From NCBI RefSeq assembly GCF_000739655.1, contig NZ_BATR01000017.1:1-39071 (forward strand): 39,071 bases of DNA. The letters run 5' to 3'. The notes under the pieces are model-generated. The model saw nothing but the letters and a program-made list of their open reading frames with translations, was not told where the DNA came from and did not search any database. The position numbers were made by a program, and so were the translations under genes. Source of the DNA: Verrucomicrobium sp. BvORR106. Lineage in GTDB: Bacteria > Verrucomicrobiota > Verrucomicrobiia > Verrucomicrobiales > Verrucomicrobiaceae. Shown here piece by piece: positions 85-3,312 of the stretch. The stretch's first letter is position 1. The number at the start of each line of letters is the position of its first letter.

Positions 85-1749
85 ATGCACCGCCGCTTCT
101 TTGTTGCCGCACTGATTGCCGCCACCGCCTTGCACCCAGGCCTGGCCCAGGAACCCACCGCCCCCCCGGCCGCCACCTCCACCCCACCCGCTGACGCCCC
201 CGCCTATGACGTCGTAGTGTACAGCGGCGTCCCCTGCGGGGTCGCCGCCTCCGTGGCCGCGGCTCGCGAGGGCGCCAAGACCCTCCTTATCGAGCCCACC
301 AAAGAAGTAGGCGGCCTCAACACCAGCGGCCTCAACACCGCCGAGACCGAGCACATGCTGAAGTGGACCTTCGGCGGCGTGGCGCAGGAGGCCTACCAGC
401 GCATGGGCTGGGAATACGGCCGCTGGAACCCGGTGTACTACTTTGAATCCAAAGTCGCGGCCAAGGTCTTCCACGCCATGCTGGATGAAGCCAAGGTGGA
501 GGTGAAGTACGGCGTGCGGGTGGACAAGGTGGAAAAGGAAGGCGCCACCATCAAGAGCATCACCCTCAGCGATGGATCCAAGATCACGGCCAAGACCTTT
601 GTGGACGCCGGTTATGAAGGCGACCTCATGGCCCGCAGTGGCGTGAGCTACACCTGGGGCCGCGAGTCGATCGAAGAGTATGGCGAATCCCTCGCCGGCA
701 TCCGCCTGGACAAGACCCCGCGCAAGGCCGCGACGGTGGATGAAAAGGGCAACCTCCTCCCCGGCATCAGCGGCTGGGCCAAGGATGTGACCGAAGGCGC
801 AGCGGACAAAAAAGTCATGAACTACAACTGGCGTCTCTGCCTCTCCAACGATCCGGAGCAGAGCGTGCCCTTCCCCCAGCCCAAGCAGTATGACCGAGCC
901 CGCTACCGCGTGCTGGAGAACTGGATCAAGGAGAAGACCGCCGCCAATGAGCCAGTGAAGCTCCTCGACATCATCGACCTCTACTCCCACGCCCCCGGCC
1001 GCAAGGACAAGAAGGAGGTCAACAACAAGCAGGCCGCCGTTATTTCCGTAGGCCACTTCGGCGGGCAGTTCGACTACCCCGATGGCGACTACGCCACGCG
1101 GGACCGGATCATCGCTGATCACACGGACTACACCCTGGGCATGTTCCACTTCCTGGCCACCGATGAAACCGTGCCAGAAACACTGCGCACCGAGACCAAA
1201 CAATGGGGCCTGGCCAAGGACGAGTTCACCAACAACGACCACTGGCCCTACCAGCCCTATGTGCGCGAAGCCCGCCGCATGAAGGGCCTCTACGTGGTGA
1301 CGCAGAAGGACATCACTGAAGACCGCCGCAAGCCCGACAGCATCGCCATGGGCAGCCACTTCATCGACAGCCACCACGTGCAACGCCTCGCCCTCTCCCC
1401 CACGGAGTTCGTAAACGAAGGCCGCATCTGGGAGGAAGGGCAAGTGTACCAGATCCCCTTCCGCGCCATCCAGCCCAAGGCCGAGGAATGCACCAACCTC
1501 CTCGTCCCCGGCGCCGCCAGCTTCTCCCACGTGGCCTTCTGCACCTACCGCCTGGAAAGCACCTGGATGAAGACTGGCCACGCCGCCGGAGTCGCCGCCG
1601 CCCGCGCCGCCCTCTGGAACAAGACCGTGCAGGACCTCATCATCGAGAACCTCCAGGAACGCCTCCGCGACCAGGGCCAGGTCATCGACTTCATCGAAGG
1701 CCAGCCCGAGAAGTTCGTGAAGGAGCAGAAGAAGGTGACGAAGAAGTAA
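85..1749 (+). CDS. Secreted FAD-dependent oxidoreductase (FAD_oxidored / PF12831-like)
   Basis: A 554-residue protein opening with a signal peptide (about residues 1-22, ending ALHPGLAQ) and a Pro/Ala-rich linker to about residue 40. The Rossmann FAD-binding segment follows: YDVVVYSGVPCGVAASVAAA, then the acidic end of beta-2 (LLIEP) and a GGLNTSGL motif. That spacing and the GG-L-x-S-G element are typical of the PF12831 FAD-dependent oxidoreductases common in Verrucomicrobia and Planctomycetes. The C-terminal part has the expected FAD-closing segment NLLVPGAASFSHVAFCTYRLES. Substrate is unknown; relatives often lie in glycan-degradation loci, but no glycosidase or sulfatase is adjacent here. 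The ATG follows a pyrimidine-rich leader with no Shine-Dalgarno. It appears to be a single-gene unit, followed by a strong hairpin. Family call is confident; function is not. Confidence 0.85.
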   Translation: MHRRFFVAALIAATALHPGLAQEPTAPPAATSTPPADAPAYDVVVYSGVPCGVAASVAAAREGAKTLLIEPTKEVGGLNTSGLNTAETEHMLKWTFGGVAQEAYQRMGWEYGRWNPVYYFESKVAAKVFHAMLDEAKVEVKYGVRVDKVEKEGATIKSITLSDGSKITAKTFVDAGYEGDLMARSGVSYTWGRESIEEYGESLAGIRLDKTPRKAATVDEKGNLLPGISGWAKDVTEGAADKKVMNYNWRLCLSNDPEQSVPFPQPKQYDRARYRVLENWIKEKTAANEPVKLLDIIDLYSHAPGRKDKKEVNNKQAAVISVGHFGGQFDYPDGDYATRDRIIADHTDYTLGMFHFLATDETVPETLRTETKQWGLAKDEFTNNDHWPYQPYVREARRMKGLYVVTQKDITEDRRKPDSIAMGSHFIDSHHVQRLALSPTEFVNEGRIWEEGQVYQIPFRAIQPKAEECTNLLVPGAASFSHVAFCTYRLESTWMKTGHAAGVAAARAALWNKTVQDLIIENLQERLRDQGQVIDFIEGQPEKFVKEQKKVTKK

Positions 1750-1773
1750 GGGGGAGGAAAAGCCTCCAGCATT

Positions 1774-1806
1774 GGCGAGCCCTGTCCTGCATGACAGGTG
1801 CTCGCC
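1774..1806 (+). terminator. Stem-loop just after the oxidoreductase gene, without T-tract
   Basis: GGCGAGC-CCTGTC, loop CTGCAT, then GACAGG-T-GCTCGCC forms a 13 bp stem with one bulged T, beginning 24 bases after the stop codon. No run of T follows, so it is not a classical intrinsic terminator. It may stabilise the 3' end or be the first part of the palindromic element that starts directly after it. Confidence 0.45.
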
Positions 1807-1821
1807 GAAGGGGCGGGAAGT

Positions 1822-2110
1822 GGGCTCCTGACGCCAAAGGCGTCAAACAAAACAGCCCTGGGTAAGGCGAGGCACGAGCCGCCACCCAGGGGGATCGATG
1901 GAAAAGCGCTGGAACTCCAAAGGAGTTCTACAAACCGTCCAAATCACCCGGAGACGGGCCGCACTACATGCAGTGTGCACCTCAGGGATCCGGTCACAGT
2001 CTGTAGAACTCACTTCGGAGTTCTGACCCATTGCCCATGTACCCAGGGTGGCGGCTCGTGCCTCGCCTGACCCTGGGCTAGCATGTATGACGCCTTTGGC
2101 GTCAGCGGGC
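1822..2110. repeat. Nested inverted-repeat element A
   Basis: The left arm (about 1828-1890) and the right arm (about 2042-2105) are near-perfect reverse complements, including GGCGAGGCACGAGCCGCCAC and the mini-hairpin ACGCC-AAA-GGCGT. Inside them a second arm pair (1910-1931 and 2002-2026) carries AACTCC-AAA-GGAGTT on the left and GAACTC-ACTTCG-GAGTTC on the right. The whole can fold into one long interrupted hairpin with smaller hairpins on its arms. Short open frames on both strands here encode near-identical peptides because of the symmetry and are not genes. Confidence 0.85.
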
Positions 2111-2225
2111 TCACTTGCGGCGTCGACGAAGGCTCCGTCCACACCGGCAGGCGGTGCCGCAAATCTCCCGACTCAAGCCAGCAGACCGCCAAGGAACCTC
2201 CTGCTGCGAGGCGCCCCCCCGCACT

Positions 2226-2471
2226 CGAACCCGGAGGGTTCACCATGAATAGCCATGCGGTGAAGCGAGCGGAGCGAGTGCAACCCATGGAAAACGTCGC
2301 GCACAAACTCTACCGCGGAGCGGTAGGCCATCACGGCGGTCATACCTCCCAAGCAGGCACACCCGTCGAAGGCCTACCGCTCCGCGGTAGCACGGCGTTG
2401 GCGCTTTCCACGGGTTTGGCTCGCTAAACTCGCCTAACCCGTGGCTACGCATGGTGAACCCTCCGGGTTCG
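2226..2471. repeat. Long inverted-repeat element B (arms about 104 bases)
   Basis: The left arm is 2226-2329 and the right arm 2371-2471, separated by about 41 bases. The outer 22 bases (CGAACCCGGAGGGTTCACCATG, split as CGAACCCGGAG and GGTTCACCATG) and the inner 20 bases (CTACCGCGGAGCGGTAGGCC) of the arms match perfectly as reverse complements; the middle is imperfect. Each matching block is itself a mini-hairpin with a 3-base loop: GAACCC-GGA-GGGTTC and TACCGC-GGA-GCGGTA. No transposase or target-site duplication was seen. Confidence 0.88.
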
Positions 2472-2525
2472 GAAACGCCCTCTAGTCAAACGATCTCCTG
2501 AGCAGGACGTTCCCCTTAGTCGAGG

Positions 2526-2654
2526 TCAGTCCACGAAGTCAGCCTGTAGCAACCGCAGGTTTTTCCGTGCCGAAGCCAGCTCCGCCTCGAACAATTCAGC
2601 CTCAGCCGCATCAAGATGGGGCATCCGCTTCCAAGCTGCAAGCAGGTCGACTCC
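2526..2654 (-). pseudogene. Possible remnant of a type II antitoxin C-terminus
   Basis: The minus frame reads DLLAAWKRMPHLDAAEAELF, then EAELASARKNLRLLQADFVD and a stop. This acidic amphipathic tail resembles, from memory, the C-terminal tails of antitoxins paired with PIN-domain toxins. Upstream the frame continues with unconvincing sequence (STRSVPRRCTG), so no intact N-terminal DNA-binding domain is present, and no toxin gene follows. The most likely reading is a decayed fragment left beside the repeat elements. A chance open frame cannot be excluded. Confidence 0.33.
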
Positions 2655-2841
2655 AGTGCACCGACGAGGAACTGAGCGCGTACTTATCGCCAAGCCTCCA
2701 TCACACCCGACACGCCCCGAAATTGGCATTGCCGTTTCGCAGGTCGAATCCGTAACCAATGGACCAGACATATTGAGGATCAATCCTACCACACGTTCCT
2801 TCTGGCTCCAGCACAACCCTCTCCCAAACGCACCCAACTAC

Positions 2842-3312
2842 ATGTCCGAACACAAAGCCTTCATCCTGTGGGAAAACACCAGTGCCGAGGGAGAGTTCAC
2901 CAAAGGACGCTATTCGCGGGAGCACACCTGGAAGTTCGACGGCGGAGTCACCGTCCCGGCCTCCCCCTCGCCTTCCGTGGTGCGCCCGCCGTTCTCCAAT
3001 CCCGACTGCGTGGACCCGGAGGAAGCCTTTGTCGCCGCCATCTCCAGTTGCCACATGCTGACCTATCTCTTCCTCGCGGGGCGAAAAGGCTTCCAGGTCG
3101 AGCGCTATGAAGACGAGGCCGTGGGCGTGATGACCAAGAACGACGCCGGCGTCCCCTGGGTCAGCCAGATCACCCTCAACATCCGCATCCAGTACGGCCC
3201 CAACGCCCCGTCGCCCGAAGAGGAAGACCACCTCCACCACGAGGCCCACGAGCAGTGCTACATCGCCAACTCCGTGAAGACAGAGATCTTGGTAAAGTCG
3301 GTAACTCAGTAA
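2842..3312 (+). CDS. OsmC-family protein (organic hydroperoxide/thiol-dependent peroxidase family)
   Basis: 156 residues from MSEHKAFILW, the normal length for the OsmC/Ohr superfamily, whose members reduce organic hydroperoxides in the cytoplasm. The two redox cysteines are visible in the usual places: ISSCHMLTYLFLA on the central helix and HEQCYIANSVKTEI near the C-terminus. A longer frame starting at 2656 exists but its extra residues look random, so 2842 is chosen. The start follows CCCAACTAC without a Shine-Dalgarno. The stop codon lies inside a CAGTAA-type repeat, so the last residues (SVTQ) may be repeat-derived. It stands alone, convergent with the AraC gene. The subgroup (OsmC, Ohr or YhfA-like) is uncertain. 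Confidence 0.88.
   Translation: MSEHKAFILWENTSAEGEFTKGRYSREHTWKFDGGVTVPASPSPSVVRPPFSNPDCVDPEEAFVAAISSCHMLTYLFLAGRKGFQVERYEDEAVGVMTKNDAGVPWVSQITLNIRIQYGPNAPSPEEEDHLHHEAHEQCYIANSVKTEILVKSVTQ

Follow-up and report, generated by a model that had tools for sequence, protein, structure and literature searches.

Several described systems come close to the locus investigated here. First, REPINs are pairs of REPs in inverted orientation, dispersed through the genome, whose ends are conserved and which enclose a spacer; they are related to Y1 enzymes and are lost asymmetrically, as described by Bertels and Rainey (2011, PMC3116915). Second, in RAYT or TnpA-REP systems and REPtrons a Y1 gene lies between inverted REPs with a GTAG-like head, and the letters of the arms vary with the enzyme (Nunvar 2010, PMC2817692; PMC8266576). 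Third, TIRYT genes form TIRtrons, in which the Y1 gene sits between long, partly self-complementary terminal inverted repeats that are also found in the genome as single or dimeric repeats (Di Nocera 2013, PMC3733652). As far as these sources describe them, these traits recur in the elements reported below, where the head is more often ATAG than GTAG and asymmetric loss is a candidate reading. According to the same literature, TnpA-REP recognises headed REP hairpins on single-stranded DNA in vitro (PMC8266576), and certain repeats of P. putida and P. fluorescens join degenerate GTAG units to stem-loops (PMC3733652). Whether the enzyme sees a long hairpin or separate REP hairpins is a question asked in the REPIN literature itself (PMC3116915, Figure S11 legend).

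We analysed a window of 39,071 nucleotides, the whole stretch taken from contig NZ_BATR01000017.1 (C193) of Verrucomicrobium sp. BvORR106, whose genome (G000) comprises 8.69 Mb in 209 contigs. With a probability of roughly 0.8 (0.82), element B of this window (2226..2471) is a REPIN-like non-autonomous element of an IS200/IS605-type transposase, which would have arisen from a unit of the form 'arm - Y1/HUH gene - arm' by loss of the gene.

Element B, to which no strand is assigned, is an inverted pair of tripartite units of A/A type with a short centre. Its left arm (2226-2329, 104 nt) contains, on the plus strand, an outer mini-hairpin GAACCC-GGA-GGGTTC (2227..2241), read from the sequence and with its pairs counted in the covariation test below; the head ATAG, 5' of the REP stem (2249..2252); a REP-type stem-loop CCATGcGGT...AACCCATGG (2253..2290); and an inner mini-hairpin CTACCGC-GGA-GCGGTAG (2310..2326). 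Beyond the 41-nt centre, or loop (2330..2370), the right arm (2371-2471, 101 nt) carries its parts on the minus strand, namely, the inner mini-hairpin CTACCGC-TCC-GCGGTAG (2374..2390), the REP-type stem-loop CCACGGGT...ACCCGTGG (2408..2444), whose stem departs from that of the left arm by a paired change, the head, which reads CTAC on the plus and GTAG on the minus strand (2445..2448), and the outer mini-hairpin GAACCC-TCC-GGGTTC (2456..2470). The outer 22 and inner 20 bases of the arms are exact reverse complements, and when the arms are aligned with gaps, 84 of 97 aligned columns are identical and 13 mismatched, with 11 further positions in gaps. A preliminary description of the window had reported this two-arm hairpin with its arm and loop lengths, and had recognised the perfect blocks as mini-hairpins with a GGA loop; its anatomy proved exact on re-reading.

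As DNA, element B folds with -92.9 kcal/mol (z -12.7), and as RNA with -170.4 kcal/mol (z -16.5), and in neither case was any of 200 shuffles as good. It sits, together with a second element, A, between two plus-strand genes, for an FAD-dependent oxidoreductase (85-1749) and an OsmC-like protein (2842-3312). The statement of the preliminary description that no transposase is present agrees with the lack of any Y1 (PF01797) match on the window contig, Y1 being the one family searched; 18 such matches occur elsewhere in the genome. An Rfam search of positions 1500-3300 at a relaxed threshold returned four matches, none of which reached its gathering score, the best being to a microRNA precursor family (E 0.013, 29.8 bits vs 124); all four were read as artefacts of the palindrome. 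Plasmid records searched in distant mode gave no match.

Element B belongs to a large dispersed family. In its own genome, a first search gave at least 101 matches (40 of 88 first-look candidates scored), and one with the transposase region of a congener at least 134 (40 of 164 candidates scored), adding further places. An iterated nhmmer model identified, among the loci fetched, at least 97 units of about 101 nt at no fewer than 58 places; 91 of these units are full-length by our criterion, one with an internal gap. The exact pattern of the outer mini-hairpin occurs 103 times genome-wide vs once in a backwards control, and about half of these 103 sites were located individually. Arm remains at C72, C112, C120 and C123:13456, among the sites listed, lie beyond the 58 places, so that the counts given for the family are lower bounds.

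As in REPINs, units occur as adjacent two-arm pairs, of which there are 29-30 among the 91 full-length units, a number that depends on the set of loci fetched, and the resulting elements are gene-less inverted repeats of about 245-270 bp. Most other two-arm copies have a centre of 63-66 nt; short centres are found in this genome in element B and at C191 (42 nt), and eight full-length matches of B-like size occur in the congeners G001 and G003. Two pairs, L049 204-486 and L051 207-493, have their outer hairpins facing, that is, tail to tail, and not in the usual orientation. In nine of 29 two-arm elements at least one reading frame stays open over the whole length, and we did not adopt a coding reading of these frames.

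The order of parts within the unit is outer mini-hairpin (GAACCC-GGA-GGGTTC), head, REP stem-loop, variable stretch and inner mini-hairpin. Alignment of 88 of the 91 full-length units, leaving out two at the transposase relic described below (L133) and the gapped right unit of L137, showed that 11 nt separate the outer mini-hairpin from the REP in 85 units and 12 nt in the other three. This spacer ends in the head, which is ATAG in 49 units, GTAG in 35, TTAG in three and ATCG in one. The REP stem-loop is CCATGGGT...ACCCATGG with a loop of CGAGCGNAGCGAG type, and 15-19 variable nucleotides separate it from the inner mini-hairpin CTACCGC-GGA-GCGGTAG. Pairing in three stems named beforehand was found in 98.3% of 1848 cells, vs 30-43% in slid controls. 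Double-sided changes affect eight of 21 pairs (51 cells), and no shuffle out of 500 reached any of the five measures, where the shuffles ignore relatedness and the slid control accounts for it but favours a structure derived from the consensus. The doubly changed pairs fall in the REP stem (four) and in the inner mini-hairpin (four); the outer mini-hairpin has none, so that it counts as conserved and not as proven by covariation. The preliminary description had made its idea of a structured mobile family depend on other copies and compensatory changes, and both were found, the former in large number.

Comparison of the two arms bears on what keeps them alike. The preliminary description had suggested gene conversion or selection for the ends, and one may add that the arms could be held together by pairing into a single functional long hairpin, given that the minimum-energy fold of a single B copy is indeed a long hairpin and that the ends of the window's copy are identical. 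The family as a whole makes conversion, or such arm-to-arm pairing, very unlikely. First, arms of the same element are slightly less alike (identity 0.759) than arms taken from two different elements (0.786), and re-pairing the arms at random 2000 times nearly always gave a higher identity than the true pairs, in part because two types of arm exist. Second, in 24 of the 28 two-arm elements of the aligned set the REP stems of the two arms are unlike. Third, REP pairs are better kept within the own arm (440 of 448 cells) than from arm to arm (405 of 448). The similarity of arms therefore speaks against gene conversion, and the constraint is local, not arm-to-arm. Selection for the ends is the better fit of the two suggestions, but what is kept extends beyond the perfect blocks, to three local hairpins per arm.

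The two arm types also confer polarity on the element. All 30 ends that follow TCAT/GCAT(T) are of the G type (GGGTTCG), whereas the remaining 61 ends comprise 49 of A type, 11 of G type and one unread. By arm type, 29 pairs divide into 20 G/A, six A/A, to which the window's element B belongs, two G/G and one read in part; among the 20 G/A pairs, 19 have the TCAT flank, and in every case it is the G arm that adjoins it. The flank motif, GCGCGTTATCTCAT, occurs 18 times in the genome with at most one mismatch and is absent from the backwards control. Thirteen of these positions adjoin family units, three adjoin lone or degenerate ends (C170, C118:155112 and C42:61604), and two lie, by eye, within apparent coding sequence. 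With 13 plus three of 18 positions at family ends, the motif accompanies the G-type end, either as a target or as a component of the element itself.

Tandem arrays of 7-8 nt, with letters varying by locus, were observed just upstream of the TTATCTCAT motif, for example before position 1501 in L015 and in L014, and at 1330-1500 in L193. At least 14 bases of tandem repeat within 150 nt were found at 16 of 28 TCAT ends vs four of 63 other ends and none of 267 background windows (Fisher p 2.9e-7 for the enrichment at TCAT ends). Target preference, slippage at the hairpin and common ancestry are candidate causes. Arrays of the form (GTGCGTCR)n occur on C31, C96, C107, C114 and C151 (L248, L251, L252, L253, L255), and the first 100 of 155 matches to this repeat form 17 clusters: five precede the flank motif of family B, one is some 130 nt away from a B end, two fall in the L034 transposase locus, five are followed by a conserved motif, GGGTTCGAGGTA, and four have neither. 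Arrays of the same 8-mer thus being found elsewhere too, an exclusive partnership with family B was ruled out. Our literature search on heptamer arrays together with REP and IS200 found no paper.

The arms of family B frame a transposase gene in a congener. At locus L106 of G003, a Y1/HUH transposase gene (L106:1492-1938), with the HxH motif and the Tyr aligned, has B-type arms in inverted orientation on both sides, complete with outer hairpins GAACCC, heads GTAG and ATAG, REP and inner mini-hairpin, the last with different letters (GAACCGC instead of CTACCGC). These inverted flanks match each other at E 3e-27, and a second, partial arm lies upstream. At the orthologous place of the window's genome (C158:3968-4383), what is left is the two arms and roughly 25 codons from the start of the gene; its remainder is gone. 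None of the 18 PF01797 matches of this genome has B-type arms, allowing up to two substitutions per motif. An intact cognate gene is present in G003, and the C158 relic is the sole counterpart recognised in G000. Because no intact gene of the L106 clade was recognised in G000, the family is probably immobile and decaying in the window's genome.

The centres of the gene-less elements also point to L106. The consensus of 20 G/A element centres, all turned to one orientation, matches the non-coding edges of L106, at the 5' side over 15 nt (score 22) and at the 3' side over 31 nt (score 32), in each case with none of 1000 letter shuffles as good. When single centres are averaged, the 5' edge scores 15.4, a value that shuffles also reach (maximum 15.8 of 300); the 3' edge, at 31.4, is well above the shuffled maximum of 21.5. 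A MITE of a DDE transposase of the IS630, IS4 or IS5 type would equally be a dispersed, gene-less inverted repeat of about this size; however, the gene framed by such arms encodes a Y1/HUH enzyme, and the flanks of the two-arm elements inspected show, by eye, no common target duplication, which leaves such an origin scarcely credible.

L106 scores 66.8 bits against the IS200/IS605 model NF033573 (cut-off 55) and 83.9 bits against Pfam Y1_Tnp PF01797 (cut-off 23), and fails the NCBIfam model for REP-associated tyrosine transposases, NF047646, with 25.7 bits against a cut-off of 80. On this basis it is an IS200/IS605-type Y1 transposase with RAYT-like surroundings. L113 and L034 likewise remain under the NF047646 cut-off, with 26.3 and 19.3 bits. 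The nearest relatives of L106 are L113 (58%) and L109 (55%) of G024, whose arms are related to B arms, and its nearest protein in the window's genome, among the seven compared (L031-L037), is L034 (42%).

The arrangement around L106 is not an isolated case. We read the flanks of eight Y1 loci of the window's genome (L031-L038), and around L031-L037 found inverted arms of similar layout with other letters. Five genomes yielded 36 strong single-domain Y1 matches (7 + 29), of which 31 were tested, two being too near a contig end and three being without fetched sequence. An inverted flank match at E<1e-3 is present at 28 of these 31 loci, leaving three without, vs none of 84 control windows (BvORR034), and mini-hairpins of at least 6 bp with a 3-nt loop stand on both sides at 24 of 31 vs one of 84. 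The strict triple, defined as inner mini-hairpin, perfect REP stem, CTNN and outer mini-hairpin, occurs on at least one side at 16 loci and on both at 12, with none in the 84 controls; where shown, the spacing between REP and outer mini-hairpin is 10-13 nt. Since the remaining 15 loci, some of them with clear inverted flanks, fail this strict search, the tripartite layout is common at Y1 loci, and its universality goes beyond the evidence.

Other features were seen at these loci. At L116 (G003:C1:2184232-2187492), a hairpin GAACCGGGACGGTTC recurs in tandem at intervals of about 96 nt, on either side of a longer gene with a Y1 domain. Some Y1 genes look broken, with a frame that ends early in L037 (G000:C46) and one internal stop each in L110 (G001:C95) and L114 (G018:C261). 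By eye, the REP loops of L031, L035, L094, L106, L109 and A1 units have GCTCG/CTCGC-type words in common on differing stems, and these words are perhaps a shared contact of the enzymes.

Family matches number at least 49 in G001 (20 of 84 candidates scored) and at least 46 in G003 (20 of 75 scored), and G002, a 2.5 Mb assembly 76% complete, gave none. Outside the genus, weaker matches were found in three of 34 genomes searched (G018, G024 and G027). All our comparisons draw on three congeners and, within one family, two additional genera. Element B occupies the same place in G000, G001 and G003, all three genomes examined there, and comparison of these sequences therefore indicates that the window's copy is old.

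Its neighbour, element A (1828..2105, no strand assigned), has the same layout in other letters, with outer mini-hairpins TGACGCC-AAA-GGCGTCA on the left (1829..1845, plus strand) and TGACGCC-TTT-GGCGTCA on the right (2088..2104, minus strand). Read side by side, the arms of element A and those around transposase L035 (G000:C106) look similar. Both G000 and G001 carry element A; at its place G003 has a lone TGACGCC-TTT-GGCGTCA, the form of the right end, and both flanks continue, the right one with a further deletion about 20 nt away. Similarly, at C170 a lone GAACCC-TCC-GGGTTC follows the TCAT motif in the window's genome, and G001 has a partly deleted element there. A weaker case lies within G000, where a lone hairpin at C122:38008 compares with a full element at C122:40921, with 49 nt of right flank in support.

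As judged from the aligned loci, these three cases are consistent with an element being lost and one of its terminal hairpins staying behind. At A in G003 and at C170 in G000 the hairpin kept has the loop of the right end, which fits asymmetric excision, although plain deletion between repeated hairpin halves would give the same product. REPIN excisions seen in reads of P. fluorescens are described as asymmetric as well (PMC3116915). The lone hairpins with matching flanks at A, C170 and, more weakly, C122 might instead be targets from before insertion, with elements inserting into mini-hairpins that match their own ends. We consider this rather unlikely, as the pair of states at C170, a partial element in one genome and a lone hairpin in the other, is what stepwise loss predicts, and a pre-existing hairpin identical to the end of the element would need an explanation of its own. 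Among the loci and relatives compared, neither a target duplication nor a clean, hairpin-free empty site was seen. At L014 the left flank aligns in G001 (94% over 816 columns) and is followed by unrelated sequence, with no clean site, and around the lone hairpin of L201 both G001 and G003 carry other repeats between the flanks. Separately, the G003 orthologue of G000:C39:33116 is interrupted, directly behind the TAG head, by an insert of about 1.6 kb (L188, G003:C1:5902800-5906900, 1095-2704), whose gene matches PF02371 of the IS110 family with 63.7 bits and PF01548 with 23.1 bits, the latter under its cut-off. Insertion of IS110-family elements in REPs is known (PMC1525189).

REPs can be mobile and used by the host at once. 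Element B could accordingly be pictured as a structure selected by the host, such as a BIME-like protein site, a terminator or an mRNA 3' end, kept for its fold and with a mobility that is past or irrelevant. Its strong folds as DNA and RNA, the compensatory changes in the family and the intergenic position of a copy common to G000, G001 and G003 would suit such a role. We nevertheless regard it as improbable, because the arms match those framing transposase genes, the elements are polar with a fixed flank motif, the orthologous B copy of G001 has lost pairs in both inner mini-hairpins, and relatives reduce elements to one hairpin. A host-functional RNA or nucleoid site, both raised in the preliminary description, is not needed to account for the data, whereas its proposal of a non-autonomous mobile element is well supported by the dispersed family, the arm-framed transposase of the congener and the presence and absence of element A.

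The origin that we favour for B, gene loss from a Y1 unit, would start with a transposon-like 'arm - Y1/HUH transposase gene - arm', from which the gene was lost and the arms were left. Transposase supplied in trans would then have recognised, on single-stranded DNA, the REP hairpins with their heads, the mini-hairpins also belonging to the ends of the element, and the pair of arms would have moved as one polar unit with its G-type end beside TTATCTCAT; loss of an element would leave one mini-hairpin. Transposition itself we infer from sequence comparison, and the arm-framed transposase of the sister species probably explains how the elements spread.

It is tempting to go further and speculate that in Verrucomicrobiaceae the end recognised by the transposase is a tripartite hairpin code (mini-hairpin with 3-nt loop, headed REP, mini-hairpin), in which the letters diverge by transposase clade and the spacing of REP to outer mini-hairpin stays at 10-13 nt, in elements that are polar, moved on single-stranded DNA and excised asymmetrically, and in which identical arms are disfavoured. 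The left end would adjoin TTATCTCAT, in many cases directly behind arrays of 7-8-nt tandem repeats, asymmetric excision would leave one mini-hairpin as a footprint, and selection would act on a clover of local hairpins, so that these REPINs would avoid becoming perfect long palindromes. We hold this extension, in all its parts, to be possible but doubtful.

Among the openly available papers listed for RAYT/TIRYT or for Verrucomicrobium palindromic repeats, we found no account of such elements. The genus offers a natural series, from the intact unit (G003) through the relic (G000), gene-less elements and a partial element to lone mini-hairpins, which illustrates how REPIN-like families can arise and decay outside Proteobacteria. 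Moreover, the question of a long hairpin versus separate REPs is one to which the inequality of the arms and the local covariation are relevant, and several sets of enzyme and arms with one layout in different letters provide a panel for decoding how Y1 enzymes recognise hairpins.

Comparison with the described systems shows where these elements stand. Unlike REPINs as described (PMC3116915), they have three hairpins per end (about 101 nt), their arms are of two types and polar, and in the window's genome we recognised no intact cognate gene. They differ from RAYT systems and REPtrons in an enzyme, L106, that falls below the RAYT cut-off and above that for IS200/IS605, in heads that read mostly ATAG (49 of 88 units, against 35 with GTAG), and in two extra mini-hairpins per arm. 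With TIRtrons, compared by their published description (PMC3733652), they share a Y1 gene flanked by long terminal inverted repeats which themselves make up a family of repeats, but here the REP stands between two mini-hairpins at a fixed spacing, and does so with several enzymes. In the same phylum, REP families in dimers are described from Opitutus terrae (Verrucomicrobia), whose GTAG-17/GTAG-19 partners lie 1-2 bp apart, in an account that makes no mention of tripartite arms in the part available to us (PMC3733652). Finally, IS200/IS605 elements provide the closest enzyme model and have polar ends with a fixed flank at one end, although the arms found here are inverted repeats and known members are described as being without terminal inverted repeats (PMC2817692).
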